A DNA stretch of 28,395 nucleotides. Origin: a virus. Position numbers and translations under genes: made by a program. Position 1 is the first letter of the stretch; every line of letters begins with the position of its first letter. Positions 9,858 through 28,395 of this stretch are shown here, piece by piece. The notes under the pieces were generated by a model. The model saw nothing but the letters and a program-made list of their open reading frames with translations, was not told the origin of the DNA and did no database searches. The stretch is taken from IMG/VR virus record IMGVR_UViG_3300038701_001346, positions 1-28,395 of that record. The stretch is one strand, 5' to 3'.

Positions 9858-11918
9858 CTATGACCCTCCTACACCAAAAATACTTCCGGCAAGTGACCCT
9901 GTAGGGCCAGCCAAAATAGACCCTGCCGCCCCCATAAGCGGCCCAAGCAAGCCACCGCTTTGCGTGGTCGTGCCTTGGCTGTTAGTCGTGCTTGTTCCGC
10001 CCGCCTGCTGACCTGTGACCCATTGTGCCGGAAGCGCTCCGGTCAGCTCGGCAAGCAACTGCGCGAGCGCCAAATCAGCGCCCGCGCCCTGCTGGTTAAT
10101 ATCGCGCTGAATGCCGCCTGCCTGCAAGAGTTGAGCAATCTCAGCCCGCGCGTTGGCGTCCATATCGCCTTGGATGCCCGCTTGAAGCCCTGCGCTTTGC
10201 AGAGCGCGGCCAAGGGCGGCTTCACGCTGTCCGGCGTTGAACTGATTGTTCTGTTGCTCTTGTCCAAGGTTGAAGCGTGAGGCGTCATTCTGTGCGCCCA
10301 TATTCGCAAGCCCAGATTGTTGCAGCAGTTGCGCGTTGATCTGTGCGCGTTGGTTTTCAGCGCCCGCATTGGCAAGATTGGCCTGCTGATCGAATCCAGC
10401 TTGTGCAAGGTTGGCTTGGTTCAAAGCACCCGCGTTAAACTGATTGTTGCTCTGCGAAAGCTGCGCTTGCAATGCTGATACGCGGTTTGCCGCGTCCGCA
10501 TTTGTGAGGTTCGCCTGCTGATCGAAACCAGCCTGCGCAAGGATGCCCTGATTGTTTGCCGATTGGTTTGCTAATCCTGTCTGCTGTTCAAAACCCGCTT
10601 GTGCAAGGATGCCTTGGTTTGTGGCGGATTGGTTAGCAAGATTGGCTTGCTGTTCAAAACCTGCATCCGTCAAGGCAAAGCGATTGGCGGCATCGGCGTT
10701 GGCTAGGTTAGCTTGTTGCGTGAATCCCGCATTGGCAAGCGCCGCCTGATTGCGGGCCGACATATTTGCCAGCCCCGCCTGTTGGTCAAGGTTCGCCCCA
10801 AAGCGGAGATTGTCTTGCGCCGCGTTGAAGTTGGACAGGTTCGCTTGTTGATCCAGTTGCGCTTGTGCTTGTGCCGCCTGTGCCGAGAGGTTTGCATTGG
10901 CAAGGCTTGCGCTTGCATCCCGATCCGCGTCAGCCATGCCAAGCTGCGCGGCTGTGTTAAACCCGTCGCGCCGCATGTTGCCCGCTGTGGTCGCCCTAGC
11001 CCGCGCTAGGCTGTCTTCCGTCAATGCTTCGCGGATAGCATTGCGAGAGCCGCCAAATGCGCCCGTCGCTGCGGCCTGCGCTGCCTGTGCCGCCCGTGTC
11101 CGTCCGGCTTCCTCATCAAAGTCTGCAAGGGTCGCGTTGATTACGTCTTGCTCATAAGGGTTGCGGTAATCGTCCATGAATCCCGCCCCTTGCCGAGCGC
11201 TTGCACGGTCGAAAGCAGCAATCTGCGCTGCCTGTGCCGGATCAATCGAAGACGGGTCAAAGTTTGCACCGTCAAAGGTTGAAACCCGCCCGACGCTCGC
11301 CGCATTTGCATTTGTGGCTTGGCCTGCGCTCGCAGCATTAGCTTGCGCCATATCCCCTACAGAAACGCCGCCTGCTTGCGACATTGGCCCGACCTGCGCC
11401 GCGCCTGCGTTGAAGACAGGCCCGACATTAACCCCAGCGGATTGCGTTACGTCGCCAATTTGAGCCGCGTCTGCCTGCGTGGTCGGGTCCATTGTTGCCC
11501 CGCCAAATTGGCTCGCTGTATAACCGCCCGGCGAGGCTGCATAGGATGCCCCCGCAAGGCCAGCGGACCGCGCCATGCTCAATCCCGTATCAAATCCGCT
11601 CGGACCGCTCTTAGGTCCGTTTGTGAGTTGCCCTTGTCCAACGCTCGGACGCATCCCGCCCATGCCGTCCGGCATATATTTGATCGTTCCGCTCTGATTG
11701 CCGCCAATCCCGTTGCGCTGGGAGAGCATATCAAAGCCCGCTTGCTGCAAAGCGCTCGGCCCCGCCACAAAGTCAGAGCCTGAGCGACCGCGAAGCGTGT
11801 TGAGAAGATCGCTTTGTGACCGCACTTGATCTTGCAGGTAAGCAGGCGCGTCTGGCCGTGTGTAAGACGTGCCAGTCGTCGTGCTGGTCTCCTTGACCTT
11901 GGTTTTCTTTTTCCCCAT
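9858..11918 (-). CDS. large repeat-containing internal/ejection virion protein
   Basis: This 686-residue protein has a Lys-rich start (MGKKKTKVKE), a Gly/Ala/Val region of loose 10-11-residue repeats (AAQVGPMSQAGGVSVGDM type) and a conserved block (NPYEQDVINATLADFDEEAGR, then GAFGGSRNAIREALTED) seen in many podovirus structural proteins. A long Gln/Asn/Ala helix-like tract built of 22-residue units (AGFxQQANLANxxAxNxxxLA) follows, and then a Gly-rich C-terminal end (LLGPLMGAAGSILAG) that could insert in a membrane. It starts behind AAGGAG. The composition suggests an extended assembly that forms part of the DNA-injection conduit. This is inferred. Confidence 0.72.
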   Translation of the reverse strand: MGKKKTKVKETSTTTGTSYTRPDAPAYLQDQVRSQSDLLNTLRGRSGSDFVAGPSALQQAGFDMLSQRNGIGGNQSGTIKYMPDGMGGMRPSVGQGQLTNGPKSGPSGFDTGLSMARSAGLAGASYAASPGGYTASQFGGATMDPTTQADAAQIGDVTQSAGVNVGPVFNAGAAQVGPMSQAGGVSVGDMAQANAASAGQATNANAASVGRVSTFDGANFDPSSIDPAQAAQIAAFDRASARQGAGFMDDYRNPYEQDVINATLADFDEEAGRTRAAQAAQAAATGAFGGSRNAIREALTEDSLARARATTAGNMRRDGFNTAAQLGMADADRDASASLANANLSAQAAQAQAQLDQQANLSNFNAAQDNLRFGANLDQQAGLANMSARNQAALANAGFTQQANLANADAANRFALTDAGFEQQANLANQSATNQGILAQAGFEQQTGLANQSANNQGILAQAGFDQQANLTNADAANRVSALQAQLSQSNNQFNAGALNQANLAQAGFDQQANLANAGAENQRAQINAQLLQQSGLANMGAQNDASRFNLGQEQQNNQFNAGQREAALGRALQSAGLQAGIQGDMDANARAEIAQLLQAGGIQRDINQQGAGADLALAQLLAELTGALPAQWVTGQQAGGTSTTNSQGTTTQSGGLLGPLMGAAGSILAGPTGSLAGSIFGVGGS
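10330..10800 (-). repeat. 66-bp (22-residue) in-frame tandem repeats
   Basis: The codons for the Gly-Phe of the AGFxQQ motif occur at 10722, 10656, 10590, 10524 and 10392, exactly 66 bp (or twice 66) apart, and the related NLDQQ unit keeps the same register near 10790. Each unit looks like two 11-residue half-units, a pattern that gives a long, nearly straight helix. DNA copies are diverged, so this is an old expansion kept by selection on the protein. Confidence 0.8.
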
Positions 11919-20986: not shown

Positions 20987-22273
20987 TCAGGCTGCATAAT
21001 TCGGCACTTTTAGCGGTGTGGCTTTACGGACAACGCTGAGGTCGTCGATCTTGAGCGCCAACATCCCGAAAGCATCAGCACTATGGCTTGACCAATCATG
21101 TTCAGGCCCCAGCCCGATGTTGCGCGCTTCGTCTTTGCGTTCATGGTAGAAGCCCAGCGCATCCCGCCCCGCTTCCGTGTTCTCTTTGTGGAAGACAAAC
21201 TTCCCAAACTCTCTGCGCACCGCCTCAACACGCTGAGCCGCTGCCCCGCGTCCCTGATTAGGCACAACATCAACGGAGAAACCTGCATCGCGCCAGTGGT
21301 CGGCGTAACGCTTGCCCGTCACATTGTTTTCGTTCACTCCGTCATGGGGTAGCCAGATATGCGCCCGCTCATATCCGCGTTCCCGCATCCAGTTGACGTG
21401 ATAAGAAAGCGTCTGCCCTTGCGCCTCGTAGTGATCGACCACGTGAACCATCCCGTTCACAAACTGACAGACCCAAATGACATAGGCGTCGGCATTTCGG
21501 CCCGATCCACCAATGTCGTGAAAGCTGTGCAGGCTTAGCAGGTCGTCAATCGGCAAGTCATCCCGAATGCGCCCGTCCTGCTTCGCCTTCGTCAGCGCCG
21601 CCGCATAATAAGCGCCTTCGAACGCTGTCGCGTAAGCGCCTTCCCAAATATGCTCGTAGCGTTCTGGATTGTTCTTGAGGTCAAACAACCTCTCTTTTTC
21701 CAGCTCAGCCGGAAACCAAGGGTTATCGTTCCAGTTCGCCCTGACGACAATCGCGTCCTTGCCGTGATCCTTTTGCCTTAGCAGCACGTCAACAGGGTCT
21801 GTCTTGCGCCGTGGGTTCCATGTGAACCAGATTTGGCTTCCCGGCGCGCGAATGGTCGGCCTGAGCAATTCCATAGAGCGAGCCGATAGGGTTTGCGCTT
21901 CCTCAACCCATGCGCGCCCAAAGCCTTCAAGAGACTTCACACTTTCCGCCGTGTGATCCTGCATCCCTTGGAAGATGATCTGACCGCCGCCCGGTGTCTT
22001 AATCAAGTCCCGCTGCACCTCGAACATGGACCCAACGCCCATGTCCTGAATTTTCGTCTCCAATAGTCGCTTGGCAGAATCCTTGAGCGACTTCTGAACC
22101 TCACGAATGCAAACAGACGATAAGCCGGGGTAAAGTAGGTGATCTTCAATCAGCGCCTCGGCGCGGTCATGCGACTTACCGGACCCCCTGCCTCCATACG
22201 CAGCCTTGTAACGAGCGTCCGCCTTGTAGAGCGGGGCGAAAACCCTAGCGCTCTGGCGTTTCAGTATCGACAA
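20987..22273 (-). CDS. terminase large subunit
   Basis: The 428-residue packaging ATPase/nuclease carries a Walker A GGRGSGKS (residues 27-34), a Walker B region GRAWVEEAQ (119-127, catalytic Glu124/125) and a C-terminal nuclease domain with Asp253 (FHDIGG), Asp311 (LPHDG) and a late Asp in SHSADAFGML. This fits the Terminase_3 (PBSX-type) family. The ORF begins with TTG 22273, overlapping TerS by 29 bp, and no better start lies before the Walker A. It cuts the DNA concatemer and pumps it into the head through the portal. Confidence 0.92.
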   Translation of the reverse strand: MSILKRQSARVFAPLYKADARYKAAYGGRGSGKSHDRAEALIEDHLLYPGLSSVCIREVQKSLKDSAKRLLETKIQDMGVGSMFEVQRDLIKTPGGGQIIFQGMQDHTAESVKSLEGFGRAWVEEAQTLSARSMELLRPTIRAPGSQIWFTWNPRRKTDPVDVLLRQKDHGKDAIVVRANWNDNPWFPAELEKERLFDLKNNPERYEHIWEGAYATAFEGAYYAAALTKAKQDGRIRDDLPIDDLLSLHSFHDIGGSGRNADAYVIWVCQFVNGMVHVVDHYEAQGQTLSYHVNWMRERGYERAHIWLPHDGVNENNVTGKRYADHWRDAGFSVDVVPNQGRGAAAQRVEAVRREFGKFVFHKENTEAGRDALGFYHERKDEARNIGLGPEHDWSSHSADAFGMLALKIDDLSVVRKATPLKVPNYAA

Positions 22274-22661
22274 AAGCCCGCTCGATCTTCGTGACCGTTA
22301 CGCCACCCTCATGTTCGACCGTCTGCCGATCCCCGTATTTCTTCGGGGCCATCTTGCCGACCATCCATTTGCGCGTGTCAATTCTCAGCTTGGCTTTCGC
22401 CACGTCATCCGCGTTTGTGGCGTCAGCAATCTCTAGGCATTCCTCGAAGTGAAATAACGCTCTTTCATCACAGGCGCGCGCGTATTGTTCCGAAAACTCC
22501 ACGTCTTCTGCGAGCCATTTCATGACCGTGGACGTGACAGGCATTCCTTTGCCTTCACATGCCTTACGGAGAGACTTCCCTTCTGAAATAGCCTTCAACA
22601 GCTTTTGACGGACAGACTTGTCGTAGCCGGGGCGACCTGTTTTCTTTGCCTTCGGCTGCAT
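22245..22661 (-). CDS. terminase small subunit
   Basis: The 138-residue protein has a helix-turn-helix N-terminus (VRQKLLKAISEGKSLRKAC, then GMPVTSTVMKWLAE, residues 17-51), a central helical segment and the family-typical motif DTRKWMVGKMAPKKYGDRQT (95-114). It recognises the packaging site and recruits TerL. The start has GAGGCG upstream and lies three bases after the stop of the small membrane protein. No site it binds could be located from the sequence alone. Confidence 0.88.
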   Translation of the reverse strand: MQPKAKKTGRPGYDKSVRQKLLKAISEGKSLRKACEGKGMPVTSTVMKWLAEDVEFSEQYARACDERALFHFEECLEIADATNADDVAKAKLRIDTRKWMVGKMAPKKYGDRQTVEHEGGVTVTKIERAFVDTETPER

Positions 22662-23372: not shown

Positions 23373-23993
23373 CTAATTCCAGTCCTTGAACGCCCGCGCT
23401 ATATGAAGCCCCGACTTCTCCAAAATGGACAGAGTGATCGCGTTCACCGCCATTGTTTCCCGCGTCCGCATAAACTCATCCGCCCATCGCGCTACCCGCT
23501 TATCGAGTGTCTTGTTGAACCGCCGCAACTCGCCCGCCTTGATTAGCCATGCAGGGTCTTTGTCCTTGCCATCAATCGACCCGCCTAGCTTTTCCCCGTA
23601 AGCGGCTGTCTGCTTCGGCTGCGCACTTTCCCAAAGATCGGCATAACCGAGCCATCCGGTTTGCGCTTCCAATGTCAGGAAGTGAAGCACGTCGCTGACT
23701 TGTTGCACCATTGCCGCCCGCCCGCTCTTGTGCTTGTCGCCTGTGGCGTCTTGGTAGCGCATGGCGGTTATTCTCTCCGTCTGCGCGTCTGGAATGTTGG
23801 CAAGAGCCTCCAAAACGCTCTGAGGTTGCTCTGAACGGGCGTCTAAGCCTGCTTTTTTCAATTTCCGGCGCGTCACCGCGTCATAGCCCGGATCGCGCTT
23901 AGACGGCTGTTTAGCCGCCTCTGCTTGCTTTTGTGCCTGTCGCTCTATCGCAGCGCGTTTCATGCGCTCGGCGGTCTTTGGGTCTAGTTTCAT
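23373..23993 (-). CDS. basic hypothetical protein of the early region
   Basis: ATG 23993 has AAGGGGA seven bases upstream and is preferred to 24056, giving 206 residues. The N-terminal 50 or so residues are very basic (KLDPKTAERMKRAAIERQAQ, KRDPGYDAVTRRKLKKAG). The rest is helical, with KHKSGRAAMVQQVSDVLHFL and later GELRRFNKTLDKRVARWADE. It is the last gene of the replication block, right before the promoter at 23341-23369, and its basic head suggests nucleic-acid binding. It could be a late-gene regulator, but this rests only on position. Confidence 0.65.
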   Translation of the reverse strand: MKLDPKTAERMKRAAIERQAQKQAEAAKQPSKRDPGYDAVTRRKLKKAGLDARSEQPQSVLEALANIPDAQTERITAMRYQDATGDKHKSGRAAMVQQVSDVLHFLTLEAQTGWLGYADLWESAQPKQTAAYGEKLGGSIDGKDKDPAWLIKAGELRRFNKTLDKRVARWADEFMRTRETMAVNAITLSILEKSGLHIARAFKDWN

Positions 23994-24015
23994 GCGGTCC
24001 CCTTCTCGGCTCAGG

Positions 24016-24534
24016 CTAAATAGGCTTGCAAACGCCACACTTGCGGCATTGGTCATGTGTGGTCTTGAACTCCCAGTCGTGGACGCAGGGTTCGGGCTTT
24101 GGGTTGGATCGCGGTTGATCCCCCGCCATGATTGCTTTGAGAAAATCCCGCGTCTCTTTCGGTGCTTCGTAGCCTTCGCCCCAAATTGACCGGATGGTCA
24201 GACCGAGAGGCTTCAAAGCCCGTCGCGCCATTGCGACGTGGACGTGAATGACCTTTGGCGCGGACCCGCCGCTATCAATCGTTAGTTCGTCAATCGCCTT
24301 GATTGCCGTTGCACTCGCAAGTGCGTTGTGCGTTCGCGATCCATGCCTTGCTAAAGCGTGAAGCAGTCGTGCCACCGCTGGCGTGACTTTCAACGCCTCG
24401 CGCAAGTTGGTAATTTCCGCGTCAATCGTCGTGTCGCAGTCCGCCATGCGCGCCTGCAACTCATCGACCATCCAGATAATCGTCTCGCGGTCAAAGTCTC
24501 GCGGATCATCCATCAGCACGTTCGGGCGGTTCAT
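24016..24534 (-). CDS. winged-helix DNA-binding protein with C-terminal zinc-ribbon-like motif
   Basis: ATG 24534 overlaps the previous TGA (ATGA), giving 172 residues. An N-terminal helix (TIIWMVDELQARMADCDTTI) is followed by a segment resembling the OmpR/PhoB-type winged helix (about residues 50-123): LKVTPAVARLLHALARHG, KVIHVHVAMARRALKPLG and SIWGEGYEAP, where the GxGY hairpin is the wing. The C-terminal end has Cys150-x-His152 and C163-x2-C166 (CRKCG), a small zinc ribbon. There is no receiver domain. It is likely a transcription factor for phage promoters. Confidence 0.75.
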   Translation of the reverse strand: MNRPNVLMDDPRDFDRETIIWMVDELQARMADCDTTIDAEITNLREALKVTPAVARLLHALARHGSRTHNALASATAIKAIDELTIDSGGSAPKVIHVHVAMARRALKPLGLTIRSIWGEGYEAPKETRDFLKAIMAGDQPRSNPKPEPCVHDWEFKTTHDQCRKCGVCKPI

Positions 24535-24794
24535 GTCGGCCACCCGTTGCGCATATTGGACCGGATCGCGTATTTGTCCGCCTTCGCCCGATAGTCGTAA
24601 CCGAACGGTTCTAACTCCACCTCGACCTTGCGCCCACGTTCGGCCCAATAGGTTTTGATCCGCTTCGCCAGTTCCGACGCGCCGGAATAAGAGCAAGGAT
24701 CGGTCTGCGCCTGTCGCCGCGCCCTTTCATTCTTTTGGCGGTGATATGCCTGCCGATTGTCCTTCGGCTGTTCGATGACCATGAGCGCGTTCAT
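24531..24794 (-). CDS. conserved small protein (87 aa)
   Basis: The product starts MNALMVIEQPKDNRQAYHR, then a basic linker (NERARRQAQ), and ends with GASELAKRIKTYWAERGRKV, EVELEPFGYDYRAKADKY and AIRSNMRNGWPT. The C-terminal pattern resembles short proteins frequent in alphaproteobacterial phages and prophages. Function is unknown. It is coupled to the next gene by ATGA and overlaps the previous gene by four bases. Confidence 0.7.
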   Translation of the reverse strand: MNALMVIEQPKDNRQAYHRQKNERARRQAQTDPCSYSGASELAKRIKTYWAERGRKVEVELEPFGYDYRAKADKYAIRSNMRNGWPT

Positions 24795-25180
24795 GCGTTT
24801 CCTCCCTGTTTTGTGTTTGAGTGATTTCGTTCAGCACAGTTTCCGCAAACCGGAATGCGCGACTGGTAGCCGTCCACGATCCGCCAACCGTCGCCCAGCC
24901 GATCCCGGCAAATGGCGCAGCCGACAAACGGAAAAATTATGTGCAAGATTTCGCGCGGCCCCAAAGGGTGTGGTGGGCGTGTGTGCAACGCCACACCCAC
25001 CCCTTTAGGGGTGCACACTTTGCACACTTGCAACGCTTTGTTTTTCTTAGGTTTTTTCGAGAGTGTGCAAGCAAACGCTTTGCACATTTGCACACTTTTA
25101 GCCAAACTATTGAAAACATTGAATAAAACCGTGTGCAATCTGTGCATTTGCACACTTTGCACACTTGCACACTTGGTCAT
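24791..25180 (-). CDS. Zn-knuckle ORF carrying a repeat array
   Basis: ATG at 25180 overlaps the helicase TGA (ATGA) and has GGAGGTGG about eight bases upstream, so translation is likely. The 129-residue frame has a C-terminal half with two CxxC pairs (C88-C91 in CAICRD and C112-C115 in CGNCAER), a small zinc knuckle. The N-terminal 70 residues are a by-product of the DNA repeats at 24981-25175 (KCASVQSVQMH and the like) and read them in several frames. So a shorter protein from a GTG or TTG near residues 61-80 remains possible. Confidence 0.55.
   Translation of the reverse strand: MTKCASVQSVQMHRLHTVLFNVFNSLAKSVQMCKAFACTLSKKPKKNKALQVCKVCTPKGVGVALHTRPPHPLGPREILHIIFPFVGCAICRDRLGDGWRIVDGYQSRIPVCGNCAERNHSNTKQGGNA
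24981..25175. repeat. TGTGCAA iteron-like array
   Basis: Six exact copies of GCACACTT (25013, 25022, 25090, 25150, 25159, 25167) and one variant at 25082 occur on the plus strand, with inverted GTGTGC copies at 24981, 25063 and 25131. Blocks repeat about every 68-69 bp. Units within a block lie 8-9 bp apart. The array lies right downstream of the primase-helicase gene. It resembles iterons of replication origins or a binding platform for the phage regulator. Confidence 0.75.
24998..25013. repeat. perfect hairpin in the iteron region
   Basis: CACCCC (24998-25003) and GGGGTG (25008-25013) form a perfect six-base stem with the loop TTTA. It borders the first pair of GCACACTT units and could be a priming or nicking hairpin or a messenger structure. 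Confidence 0.5.
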
Positions 25181-27234
25181 TTTACCACCTCCAAAATGAG
25201 GTCGTTTCCAACCATTGAGACCCGCTTATTGGCTTGCTCAATCGGGCCAGTGGAGAGGCGGTTTTTCACTTTGTCAAAGACGCTTCTCCATTTGAAACCG
25301 AGCTTGTCATGGTTCGCATTTCGGGCATAAAAACTAACCGAACAGCGCCCGCCCTGACGTTCCAGAACGTCGATCACATCCTCTGTCAGAGCCGCCCAGA
25401 ACTTCTCGGCTTTGGCTTTTTCAGCGTCCTGTTTGAGAAGTGAGGGCGGGATCATATCGACTTCGTGAAGGGTCGCTACAATGTCACCTGACGCGATTTC
25501 GTGAGGCGTTTTCTTAAACCATGTGACGCCGTTGCCTGTTGGATCAGACATGTTTGCTTTGCCCATATCGAGACGGGCGTAGAGCTTCACTTTGTCCTTT
25601 TCGACGTTCAGCGCCTTGCCGTCTTTCTCTGACATGTTGAACAAGGTTGCCACAACGCGCGCCACGCCAACCATCGCGCCACCGCCGCGAATGACGTAAG
25701 GATCGCCCGCGTCTTCGCCTGTGGCGCTCTTAGGCGTGTGTGTGAAGGCAAGGACGGCGCAACCCGTTTCCATCGCGATGTTACGCATGATGCGCCCAAA
25801 CTCTTTTTGTTGAGGGTTTGAGTTTTCTTCGATGCTGGCAAGCTCCGCCGCAGGGTCCAAGATGATAAGTTTTGCGTTGATTGACCGCGCAGCGTCTATG
25901 ATGCGTTTGGCGTCTGCGCCTCTTTGAACAGTCTGTGACTTGGCGTCATAATGAGCCAGACAGATACCTTTCGGAAGATCATAACCTGACACCCAATGAA
26001 CACGGTTAGCAACTTCAGAAGGGTTGAAGTCATGCTCAACACACGCCGCCATGAACCGCCGACGAATTTCATGCTCCGGCTCTTCGCCGTTGACGATTAA
26101 GACGTTTCCAGCCTTCCAAGAGTGACATCCTGAAAAGGTCCGACCCATCGCAAAATTGACGGCAAGCTGTAGCGAAAAGGTTGTTTTGCCTGTTCCGGGC
26201 GGCGCGGGAATGACCGTGAGGCATCCGCCGATTAAAAGCGGCTCATATAACCAATCTCGCATTTGCGGGATTTCGCCATCTGCGAAGTTTGACAGGACTA
26301 AAGCGTCTTCGTCTGGCTTTGCCGCCCCCCTTAATATCGTCTCAACATCCTCACCGTCCGCCAAGGCGTCGGCTGCGTCCCATCCGCTGACACGCTCCGG
26401 CACGTTAACGCGCTCAACCTTGCAACCGAGTATGTCCAACTCGATTTCCAGCGCGTCCATTAACTCCTGCCCCGGCTCATCATTGTCCGGCCACAAGATG
26501 ACATGCTTGCCTGCAAGAGGCGTCCAGTCCGTTTGACTGAGAGGGGCTTTCGCGCCGCCCATGTGCGACGTGGCGTCAATCCCGACCGAGGCAAGCGCAT
26601 CAACGCACTTCTCACCTTCCACGACGACCACACGCGGCTTGTCGTGTATGTTTTCTAGGTTGTAGAGCGTCCGTATCTCCGGCGCTCGCCATTGCCCATC
26701 GGCGCGGCGCATACGGAAGGTCTTCGTTCCGTCCAGATTGCGGTAGCGGTAAACCGTGGCGTTGAGGTCGCCATTCTTTTGGCGGTATTGATATTGCGCT
26801 TCGCAGTGTAAGCGCTGATCTTTCGGCGGATCTGGCTTGTCTTTGTGCCGTTCAATCCGGCTTGTGATAACGTTGCGTGCGCGTGGCGTGTAAGACGCAT
26901 CACCCAGCCAATGAGACGTTTCCTGAACAGCAGTCGGAAAATCACACTTCATCACGGCTTGATAGAGAGACAGGAAGTCACCTCCTGCCTCGCCTGTCGC
27001 GTGGTCATACCATTTGCCCGTCTCAGGGCCATTAAGACAAATAGACAGCGAACCGCCCGGCTCACCGTCCACATTGCCAACGCGGGCTTCCTGCCCTGTA
27101 AAAATAGCGCGCGGCAGAATAGAGCGGACAAAAGCCCGCGCCGATCCGTTCAATCGGTCTTTGATTTCCTCTTTGTCCGTTGCGCGCGGCTGATCCCAAA
27201 AGGATTGCGGAAGCGCATCATTGAAATCAAGCAT
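25177..27234 (-). CDS. bifunctional primase-helicase (toprim + RepA-like AAA ATPase)
   Basis: ATG 27234 overlaps the nuclease gene by 8 bp, giving 685 residues. Residues about 45-90 hold a primase-type entry (GKWYDHATGEAGGDFLSLYQ). The toprim core shows VVVVEGEKCVDAL (Glu207) and ILWPDNDEPG (Asp250/Asp252). The ATPase follows with Walker A PPGTGKT (345-351) and Walker B LIILDPAAEL (Asp460), then FTHTPKS (His499) and RGGGAMVGVARVV. It synthesises primers and unwinds DNA at the phage fork. Its C-terminus ends just before the iteron array, the likely origin. Confidence 0.9.
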   Translation of the reverse strand: MLDFNDALPQSFWDQPRATDKEEIKDRLNGSARAFVRSILPRAIFTGQEARVGNVDGEPGGSLSICLNGPETGKWYDHATGEAGGDFLSLYQAVMKCDFPTAVQETSHWLGDASYTPRARNVITSRIERHKDKPDPPKDQRLHCEAQYQYRQKNGDLNATVYRYRNLDGTKTFRMRRADGQWRAPEIRTLYNLENIHDKPRVVVVEGEKCVDALASVGIDATSHMGGAKAPLSQTDWTPLAGKHVILWPDNDEPGQELMDALEIELDILGCKVERVNVPERVSGWDAADALADGEDVETILRGAAKPDEDALVLSNFADGEIPQMRDWLYEPLLIGGCLTVIPAPPGTGKTTFSLQLAVNFAMGRTFSGCHSWKAGNVLIVNGEEPEHEIRRRFMAACVEHDFNPSEVANRVHWVSGYDLPKGICLAHYDAKSQTVQRGADAKRIIDAARSINAKLIILDPAAELASIEENSNPQQKEFGRIMRNIAMETGCAVLAFTHTPKSATGEDAGDPYVIRGGGAMVGVARVVATLFNMSEKDGKALNVEKDKVKLYARLDMGKANMSDPTGNGVTWFKKTPHEIASGDIVATLHEVDMIPPSLLKQDAEKAKAEKFWAALTEDVIDVLERQGGRCSVSFYARNANHDKLGFKWRSVFDKVKNRLSTGPIEQANKRVSMVGNDLILEVVK

Positions 27235-27952
27235 CAGCCCAGCACTCCTCTTTGTAAGCGCAGAACCGACAGCCGAACCCGTCTGCGTCCGCGTAGGGAC
27301 GCGGAAGCATTTCGTTCGCTTCGTTTGCCTGTAAGATATTGACGGCTTTGTCGGTGACCTCCTGAGCGCGCTTCGCGTCAAACGGGATCATCTCAACGTA
27401 GCGTTCTTGCGTGTTGGCATTAGTGGCCATAAACATGGCGGGCGCGGTCAGATCGAGGTAGGCTTGATATTGCGTGATCTGGTCGTAATATTTCGGATAG
27501 GCTTTCTGAACGCCGCGCGATTGAACTGCCTTAAAGCCCTTCTCGGAAACCTCCTTGTGTTCCCATAGACAGGGCGTCTGGATGCCCTCCACAGGGCTTT
27601 CCAGAATAATTCCGTCCACGTGGCCCCGATAGCGGCCCTTGCCGCTGACAAAGCCAATTTGGTGGCCATTTTCTTTGTGTGTTTTGATCTTGAAGCCCGC
27701 CAACTTCATATGGCGGATCGCGCGCTCTTCACCGTCATGGCCGCGCTCGAAAATTCGGTATAGTTTCGCCGGAAACCGCTCCGGCTGTTTCATCTGATAT
27801 TGGATTTTGCGAGAGCATGGCTCGCCAATGGCGGACGCGCCGAGATAGTCTCTCTCGCTGCGCTCTTGCGCTTCCAGCGCCGCATCCATCACGTCGCACA
27901 CATCGCGCGCCGCTTTAGGGAGTTTGTGCTTATGGGAGTTTAGGTCGATCAC
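27227..27952 (-). CDS. Cas4/RecB-like PD-(D/E)XK nuclease with Fe-S cluster
   Basis: The GTG at 27952 overlaps the preceding stop (GTGA). The 241-residue protein has Cys46 (GEPCSRKI), a motif ERGHDGEE with His72, the nuclease core GHVDGII with Asp113 and WEHKE with Glu131/Lys133, a QITQYQAYL motif, and the C-terminal cysteines C228, C231 and C237 (CRFCAYKEECW). One N-terminal plus three C-terminal Cys is the [4Fe-4S] pattern of Cas4/AddB-type nucleases. It likely processes DNA ends for phage recombination or replication, next to the primase-helicase. Confidence 0.88.
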   Translation of the reverse strand: MIDLNSHKHKLPKAARDVCDVMDAALEAQERSERDYLGASAIGEPCSRKIQYQMKQPERFPAKLYRIFERGHDGEERAIRHMKLAGFKIKTHKENGHQIGFVSGKGRYRGHVDGIILESPVEGIQTPCLWEHKEVSEKGFKAVQSRGVQKAYPKYYDQITQYQAYLDLTAPAMFMATNANTQERYVEMIPFDAKRAQEVTDKAVNILQANEANEMLPRPYADADGFGCRFCAYKEECWADA

Positions 27953-28377
27953 GCCGCAATCTTCCCCGCTGGATTGTCAGGGAAAGGGATTTGGTCGAGC
28001 GTGTGCTTTTCAAAAAGCAGAGCTTGCGCCATGCCAGCCGAGATCAACCGGACCACATCCGACTTCTCCCATTCGGCAATCGGCTTGTCCCATGGCAATT
28101 CGAGATTGCCCAAAGCAGGCAAAGCCTTTTCAATGTAAGGCTCCAAAACCGGAACGCGGCCCGGTGTCTCTTTAAGCAGAGACCCGCCAATGACCGTCTC
28201 CGGCGCTTCCATGAGCATCACTTGAGAGCGTCCAGCCAGCCATGCGCTAATCACGTCCTGAGCCATGCTTTGCAGCTTGGATTTAGGAAGCCCGCTCACT
28301 GCTGACGTGCTGTCGCGTAAACCTTGGACCGCGCGTTCAAACGCGGCCCGTTCCTGTTCGTCGTGTTTTTCGCGCAT
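27949..28377 (-). CDS. hypothetical protein upstream of the nuclease
   Basis: ATG 28377 (a GTG at 28380 is also in frame) gives 142 residues, and TGATG coupling to a gene beyond the window is likely. The protein is helical and charged at the N-terminus (REKHDEQERAAFERAVQGLR). Its middle contains EAPETVIGGSLLKETPGRVP and ELPWDKPIAEWEKSDVVRLI. The last segment matches the style of small replication-associated phage proteins. The start region and coupling favour a real gene. The function is unknown. Confidence 0.65.
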   Translation of the reverse strand: MREKHDEQERAAFERAVQGLRDSTSAVSGLPKSKLQSMAQDVISAWLAGRSQVMLMEAPETVIGGSLLKETPGRVPVLEPYIEKALPALGNLELPWDKPIAEWEKSDVVRLISAGMAQALLFEKHTLDQIPFPDNPAGKIAA

Positions 28378-28395
28378 CACGCGGCCCAGCTAGGT

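Follow-up and report, generated by a model that had tools for sequence, protein, structure and literature searches.

Organization of the locus

The window, which is the complete 28,395-bp stretch of viral DNA analyzed here and an IMG/VR virus record, contains genes for the large and the small terminase subunit together with long ORFs that would fit phage structural genes, and most of its genes are located on the minus strand. Read in the direction of these genes, a gene for a Cas4-domain exonuclease is followed by a primase-helicase gene, a 129-aa ORF, an 87-aa ORF, two ORFs of about 226 aa and, further on, the terminase genes (Table 1). The 129-aa ORF overlaps both the helicase gene and the next ORF via ATGA, and because of these junctions at both ends it may well be translated. 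It matched nothing in Pfam or PHROG, and relatives of it were not found in any locus. For the ORF at 24016-24696 a weak match to the winged-helix family Trans_reg_C was obtained (E 2e-5, under the curated cut-off). At a distance from these genes, a 66-bp tandem repeat (10515-10661) is located inside a 686-aa repeat-rich protein encoded on the minus strand (9858-11918).

Pfam analysis of the primase-helicase identified an AAA_25 domain (PF13481, E=1.4e-33) and a Toprim domain (E=0.002) in addition to weaker overlapping matches to KaiC and DnaB_C, and the PHROG match is DNA primase/helicase. A D5_N or DUF5906 domain was not detected in this protein by Pfam, and among the eight window proteins scanned (the terminase gene and 23373-28380) Pfam revealed no initiator of the Rep_3 type. 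Using tblastn, the exonuclease gene was located directly upstream of the helicase gene in nearly all relatives, so that exonuclease, primase-helicase and the repeat array described below can be regarded as a conserved three-part cassette.

Table 1. Features of the replication region and neighboring genes in the window.
Feature	Position	Strand	Remarks
Cas4-domain exonuclease gene	27227..27952	-	PHROG 1990, E=3e-63
Primase-helicase, proposed initiator	25177..27234	-	Toprim, AAA_25 and predicted C-terminal winged helix
C-terminal domain of the primase-helicase, proposed iteron reader	25180..25434	-	Predicted winged helix
129-aa ORF	24791..25180	-	First half read from the array; CxxC...CxxC in the C-terminal part
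TGTGCAA iteron array, proposed origin	24940..25171		Three blocks and an outlying unit, 10 exact units in all, both orientations
Block 1	25131..25171		Three TTGCACA, one TGTGCAA and one TGTGCAT; 16-bp inverted arrangement
AT-rich spacer between blocks, candidate unwinding element	25096..25131		Sequence and GC minimum
Block 2	25062..25095		TGTGCAA opposite two TTGCACA; hairpin TGTGCAAGC-AAAC-GCTTTGCACA at 25064-25086
Second AT-rich spacer	25033..25061		Sequence and GC minimum
Block 3	24981..25032		TGTGCAA, G/C-rich hairpin, TTGCACA, then one-mismatch GTGCACA in the same orientation as TTGCACA
Perfect G/C-rich hairpin CACCCCTTTAGGGGTG, CACCCCT(TT)AGGGGTG	24998..25013		Stem 7, loop 2
Terminase small subunit	22245-22661		PHROG

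An iteron array directly 3' of the primase-helicase gene

The window contains 12 copies of the heptamer TGTGCAA. Only 232 bp (24940-25171) account for 10 of them, and this cluster starts about 5 bp past the stop codon of the primase-helicase gene. Shuffled versions of the whole window contained a mean of 5.3 copies and never attained 12. With about 0.04 copies expected per 232 bp, the Poisson chance of finding 10 is about 6e-21, a figure that is indicative only because the site was picked after looking. A scan of the whole window for clusters of 7-mers placed the array region alone on top.

Four units are oriented on the plus strand (24982, 25064, 25132 and the outlier at 24940) and six on the minus strand (25020, 25080, 25088, 25148, 25157 and 25165). 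The initial annotation had recognized the array and assigned it to 24981-25175; the array as such stands, whereas this extent does not, since the units reach down to 24940. The spacing described there was reproduced, with blocks recurring at 68-69 bp (25020/25088/25157 and 25064/25132) and units inside the blocks at 8-9 bp, and so was the reading of the units in different frames, which turned out to be frames 0, 1 and 2 of the ORF 25180..24791. With units in each of the three frames, the repeated entity is the DNA and not the peptide. The position just 3' of the primase-helicase, at a local AT-rich minimum and with a perfect hairpin at 24998-25013, was also seen as previously noted. The lowest-GC 30-mer of the array has a GC content of 23%, compared to a mean minimum of 38% elsewhere in the window, which corresponds to the 99th percentile. 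The GC skew of the window falls almost unbroken and gives no signal at the array, but it is uninformative because most genes sit on one strand.

Arrays at the same position in related phages

To collect relatives independently of the repeats, a protein profile of four homologs was used, which yielded 80 viral loci (designated by L numbers). The commonest 7-mer was counted on both strands, without overlaps, between -40 and +400 relative to the stop codon, and at least 5 copies were scored as an array. Using this criterion, 38 of the 54 non-redundant relatives carry an array just downstream of the gene, in comparison to 1/52 for the 5' flank, 0/54 for each of two regions of the gene body and 0/1080 for shuffled sequences. 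Further 3' the numbers were 2/46 at +600 and 0/40 at +1200, and both positives at +600 are loci with unusually short helicase frames that are probably broken. The set of 54 includes the window and L106, L253 (= L099) and L176, three loci from the repeat searches; after removal of these four, arrays were still present in 35/50. A second protein scan with an enlarged set revealed arrays in 56/82. The initial annotation had named missing repeats in relatives with the same helicase as a finding against its reading; in the two scans most relatives do have an array at this place, with a lineage-specific sequence.

About 30% of the relatives lack an array by the exact 7-mer criterion, and several of those are AT-rich. 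In L268 and L300, which have no array at the stop codon, the reading frames are truncated or frameshifted and the array lies further downstream, and L250 and L290 contain 4 exact iteron copies and are therefore under the criterion. Short repeats 3' of a homologous gene were also found in Wolbachia phage WO, in Acidithiobacillus phage AcaML1 and in the Agarilytica plasmid pSU2. In the accessible part of a genomics paper on phage WO, the term origin of replication is applied to the Wolbachia chromosome only.

The position is kept but the sequence is not: TGTGCAA, TGGGCAA, GCAACAC, GTGTTAA, GCCAACT, GCAATCT, CATTCTG, CCAGTTT and others serve as the repeated unit. Two further properties recur. Compared with stretches of equal length from the rest of each locus, the arrays reach a lower value for their lowest-GC 30-mer (Wilcoxon p=1.4e-7, median percentile 0.97). 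In addition, a strong hairpin with a short loop is present, after masking of the iterons, in 33/57 array regions as against 7/57 gene-body stretches and 26/570 shuffles. Most of the hairpins in the array regions have a polypyrimidine/polypurine stem, for example CCTCCCCCT-AA-AGGGGGAGG or AGAGGGAAC-GTTCCCTCT, and the window hairpin at 24998-25013 belongs to the same class. The hairpin seems to vary less across lineages than the iterons, and we conjecture that such a slower-changing element would be a fitting target for the conserved primase part.

The locus L302 (IMGVR_UViG_3300038701_001731) has TGTGGAA iterons, one base off TGTGCAA, after a homologous helicase gene, and it originates from the same metagenome as L004 and L005, the nearest relatives of the window. 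L004, whose contig end matches window position 25683, and L005 are near-identical phages with contigs that stop near or short of the array; perhaps the repeats broke the assembly.

The C-terminal domain and the type of iteron

A model of the C-terminus from its single sequence was poor and gave meaningless fold matches; therefore, AlphaFold2 was run on an alignment with eight relatives. In this model the window C-terminus reached a pLDDT of 82.6 and shows the order H-E-H-H-H-E-E-E, which is a winged-helix topology. In VIA-align, winged-helix domains make up many of the top matches (Cdt1, cullin WHB, CAP, Z-alpha, MCM C-terminus; Z 6-8), and Foldseek alone gave no significant match to the C-terminal model. 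The C-termini of L099, L270, L250, L262 and L277 match HTH_20, TrmB, ArsR or MarR with E values of about 1e-4 to 1e-6, and the window C-terminus by itself has no Pfam match. Together, these data lend moderate support to a winged helix at the C-terminus of the window protein. The likely binder of the iterons is this domain of the helicase and not the separate ORF at 24016-24696; a counterpart of the latter was not found beside the arrays of other phages.

Comparisons between relatives suggest that the type of iteron tracks the C-terminal domain and not the primase/helicase part. L106 and L250 share 84% identity in the N-part and 29-36% in the C-part, and their iterons are TGTGCAA and GCAACAC, respectively. 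L250 and L262 have one iteron in common, with 59% identity in the N-part and 62% in the C-part. Iterons one base apart were found for L311 and L312 (CAGAATG and CAGATTG; 92% N-part, 59% C-part) and for L106 and L270 (TGTGCAA and TGGGCAA; 75% N-part, 63% C-part). After controlling for the N-part, iteron similarity correlated with C-part identity, with a partial r of 0.24 for 40 loci and 0.32 for 57 loci (0/1000 permutations), whereas controlling for the C-part left no correlation with the N-part (-0.02 and 0.00, respectively). As the identities of the N- and C-parts correlate at 0.94, the covariation argument depends on the few pairs in which the two are decoupled. The window C-part is only 21-22% identical to those of L106 and L253 despite the common iteron. 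Segments that correspond to the putative recognition helix can be aligned without gaps between the window (DKLGFKWRSVFDKVKNRL), L106 (DKLGLDRSNAFKKLRVLE) and L270 (DKLGLDRSNAGKKLRALE). At one position the window, L099 and L106, all with TGTGCAA, have Phe and L270 has Gly, which is one observation and not a code. Covariation and natural swaps thus support the idea that the C-terminal domain of the helicase would set the iteron specificity.

TGTGCAA arrays in other sequence contexts

A three-unit TGTGCAA pattern matched 72 stretches in viral contigs compared to 8 for the reversed control pattern, which points to an enrichment of such arrays, although dinucleotides are not kept in this control. 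Arrays of mixed orientation were found repeatedly just 3' of replication genes of several kinds. In L099 and L106 the array follows a homologous Toprim-AAA_25 primase-helicase gene (35-36% identity), and in other loci it follows genes for a PrimPol-AAA_25 protein (L102), a DUF3987 helicase (L133), a DnaB-AAA_25 protein (L111) or D5/DUF5906 proteins (L093, L121). In L114 and L121 opposed iteron sets are arranged around AT-rich DNA. The matches in L098, L105, L128, L129, L141 and L143 are coding repeats and were dropped. An exact search of viral contigs with the iteron 24-mer of the window gave no match, a DNA-level search of annotated phages detected no relative of the window, and the matches obtained with the array alone were weak, short and low-scoring, in unrelated phages. 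A search of the open-access literature for TGTGCAA iterons found nothing.

A looser TGTGCAA hairpin pattern yielded 84 loci in genome contigs. Many of these adjoin housekeeping genes (MetG, EF-G, proline dehydrogenase) and are probable terminators or chance matches, and only loci with phage-type helicases, such as L176, L215 and L236, were kept. Among the Bacteroidota (Mucilaginibacter, Pedobacter and a Bacteroidetes MAG), L172, L192, L207 and L237 have TGTGCAA/TTGCACA hairpins close behind the genes for MetG and EF-G, perhaps as a lineage-specific terminator sequence. Arrays mixing TGTGCAA, TGTTCAA, TGTACAA and TTGGACA-type units are located near terminase genes in L142, L144 and L149, suggesting a wider TGTNCAA class of iterons. 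The TGTGCAA arrays of L112, L114, L137 and L153 adjoin tyrosine integrase genes and are possibly integrase arm sites instead of origins. Dense 7-mer clusters of other sequence occur in terminase-related phages (L008 near 907, 8x ACGACAG; L021 near 1448, 8x GCCGACA).

Comparison with known replication systems

The C-terminal domain of SaPI Rep helicases recognises an iteron origin directly downstream of the helicase's own gene (PMC7581432), and PICI origins have two iteron sets on either side of AT-rich DNA, directly behind the gene for the initiator (PMC6092414). The SaPI/PICI systems (SaPIbov1 Rep, SaPI5 Rep, EcCICFT073 pri-rep) are like the window in that an initiator helicase, which is sometimes fused to a primase, has its iteron origin just 3'. 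The window shows both elements of this layout, with iterons 3' of the helicase gene, the first unit directly behind the stop codon, and iteron sets around AT-rich DNA, here as three blocks with AT-rich spacers. In contrast, SaPI Reps are Cch (DUF927)- or D5/Primase_Cterm-related helicases and the primases of SaPIbov1 and SaPI5 are of the AEP type, whereas the window protein has an AAA_25 helicase (RSF1010 RepA/DnaB-like) and a Toprim (DnaG-like) primase. Moreover, the window belongs to a tailed phage with terminase genes and not to a satellite island without structural genes. By analogy, the cassette would work like a SaPI/PICI rep-ori but stands outside the SaPI/PICI family; the family of Toprim-AAA_25 primase-helicases shows a comparable layout, now in phages.

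In the alpha protein of P4, primase, helicase and origin-binding activities are combined in one polypeptide, which recognizes short iterons in both orientations. The alpha helicase is of the D5 type and ori of P4 is located apart from crr; the window protein differs by the absence of a D5 or DUF5906 match. The lambdoid O/ori-lambda system likewise couples an iteron origin encoded by the phage to the gene of its initiator. There the iterons are located inside the O gene and O is not a helicase, whereas in the window the array lies 3' of the gene and the candidate initiator is a helicase.

AAA_25 is the fold of the RepA helicase of RSF1010, and this domain (PF13481) is present in the window protein. 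RSF1010 uses three separate proteins (RepA, RepB' and RepC) and an AEP primase, in contrast to one polypeptide with a Toprim primase in the window. With one polypeptide instead of a separate AEP primase RepB' and initiator RepC, the window is not an IncQ replicon. A classical iteron-plasmid Rep (Rep_3, RepA/TrfA/pi) was not found by Pfam among the eight proteins scanned. The oriV of RSF1010 (IncQ) contains iterons and the primase-recognition sites ssiA and ssiB (PMC4538821).

Alternative functions of the array

The main rival to an origin is a site for control or partition to which the same C-terminal domain would bind. The helicase C-terminus or another regulator would then repress the operon or limit the copy number from this site, or the array would act in partition, and the origin would be located elsewhere. 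Covariation with the helicase C-terminus is also compatible with such a function, and iterons often combine control and origin roles, as exemplified by crr of P4 and the inc iterons of plasmids. However, the array region contains no promoter-like site, the array, which is part of a coupled operon, is located 3' and not 5' of the gene, its AT-rich minima and hairpins suit an origin better, and the whole-window cluster scan brought up only this region; we consider a control or partition site improbable. A function as RNA, in which the array would terminate or attenuate the replication transcript or form a structured element at its 3' side, would agree with the inverted units, which fold as hairpins in RNA as in DNA, and with the G/C-rich hairpin. 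The Rfam search of the window matched no family, no terminator-like site was called within the array, the units vary in orientation and spacing, and it is the identity of the heptamer, not pairing alone, that is kept per locus and that covaries with a domain of the DNA-binding type, which makes an RNA element very unlikely.

We assign an even lower probability to a packaging (pac/cos) site that the small subunit of the terminase would recognize. TGTGCAA arrays near terminase genes do exist (L123, L154, L155, L101), but the small terminase gene of the window is about 2.1 kb away from the array, the arrays follow the helicase gene and the helicase C-terminus, and a TGTGCAA array was present in 0/80 loci fetched with the large terminase, many of which are short contigs that may not extend far enough. 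Selection of the ORF for a Cys- and Val-Gln-rich peptide is hardly conceivable: the ORF is coupled at both ends and the unrelated pattern matches include coding repeats (e.g. L128, collagen), but units in three frames and two orientations contradict selection on the peptide, and the ORF has no relative in any locus.

Proposed mechanism and significance

Taken together, it is highly probable that the array is the replication origin of the phage and that the phage's self-loading primase-helicase binds it with the C-terminal winged helix. The initial annotation had favoured an origin over a regulator platform or an RNA element; the conserved position, the AT minimum, the recurrent hairpin and the covariation with the C-terminus, all read from sequence, point in the same direction. 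From this evidence we infer that the cassette acts as an origin and that its protein binds DNA, melts it, loads itself and primes. The primase-helicase would bind the TGTGCAA iterons through its C-terminal winged helix, assemble on the inverted iteron blocks and melt the AT-rich spacers. It would then load itself onto the exposed strands and prime synthesis there, and the G/C-rich hairpin may mark the place of priming or of loading. Gene and origin would move as one cassette, and the specificity, consisting of the C-terminal domain and the iteron, would switch as a unit.

A more far-reaching interpretation, to which we give even chances, is that a large family of phage-encoded Toprim-AAA_25 primase-helicases consists of self-loading, origin-binding initiators in which an exchangeable C-terminal winged helix reads a 7-9 bp iteron 3' of the gene and a conserved purine/pyrimidine hairpin primes. 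The pairs of domains and iterons (TGTGCAA/TGGGCAA, CAGAATG/CAGATTG and TGTGCAA/GCAACAC) would then represent a readable recognition code and evolved orthogonal origins.

The position of the origin in many uncultured phages would be predictable from sequence, directly 3' of the AAA_25 primase-helicase gene. The SaPI-type design, in which a helicase finds its own downstream origin, would be extended to another helicase fold and another class of primase, and the natural domain swaps may offer a route to how a winged helix reads its iteron. Finally, incompatibility or immunity of co-infecting phages could depend on the type of iteron.
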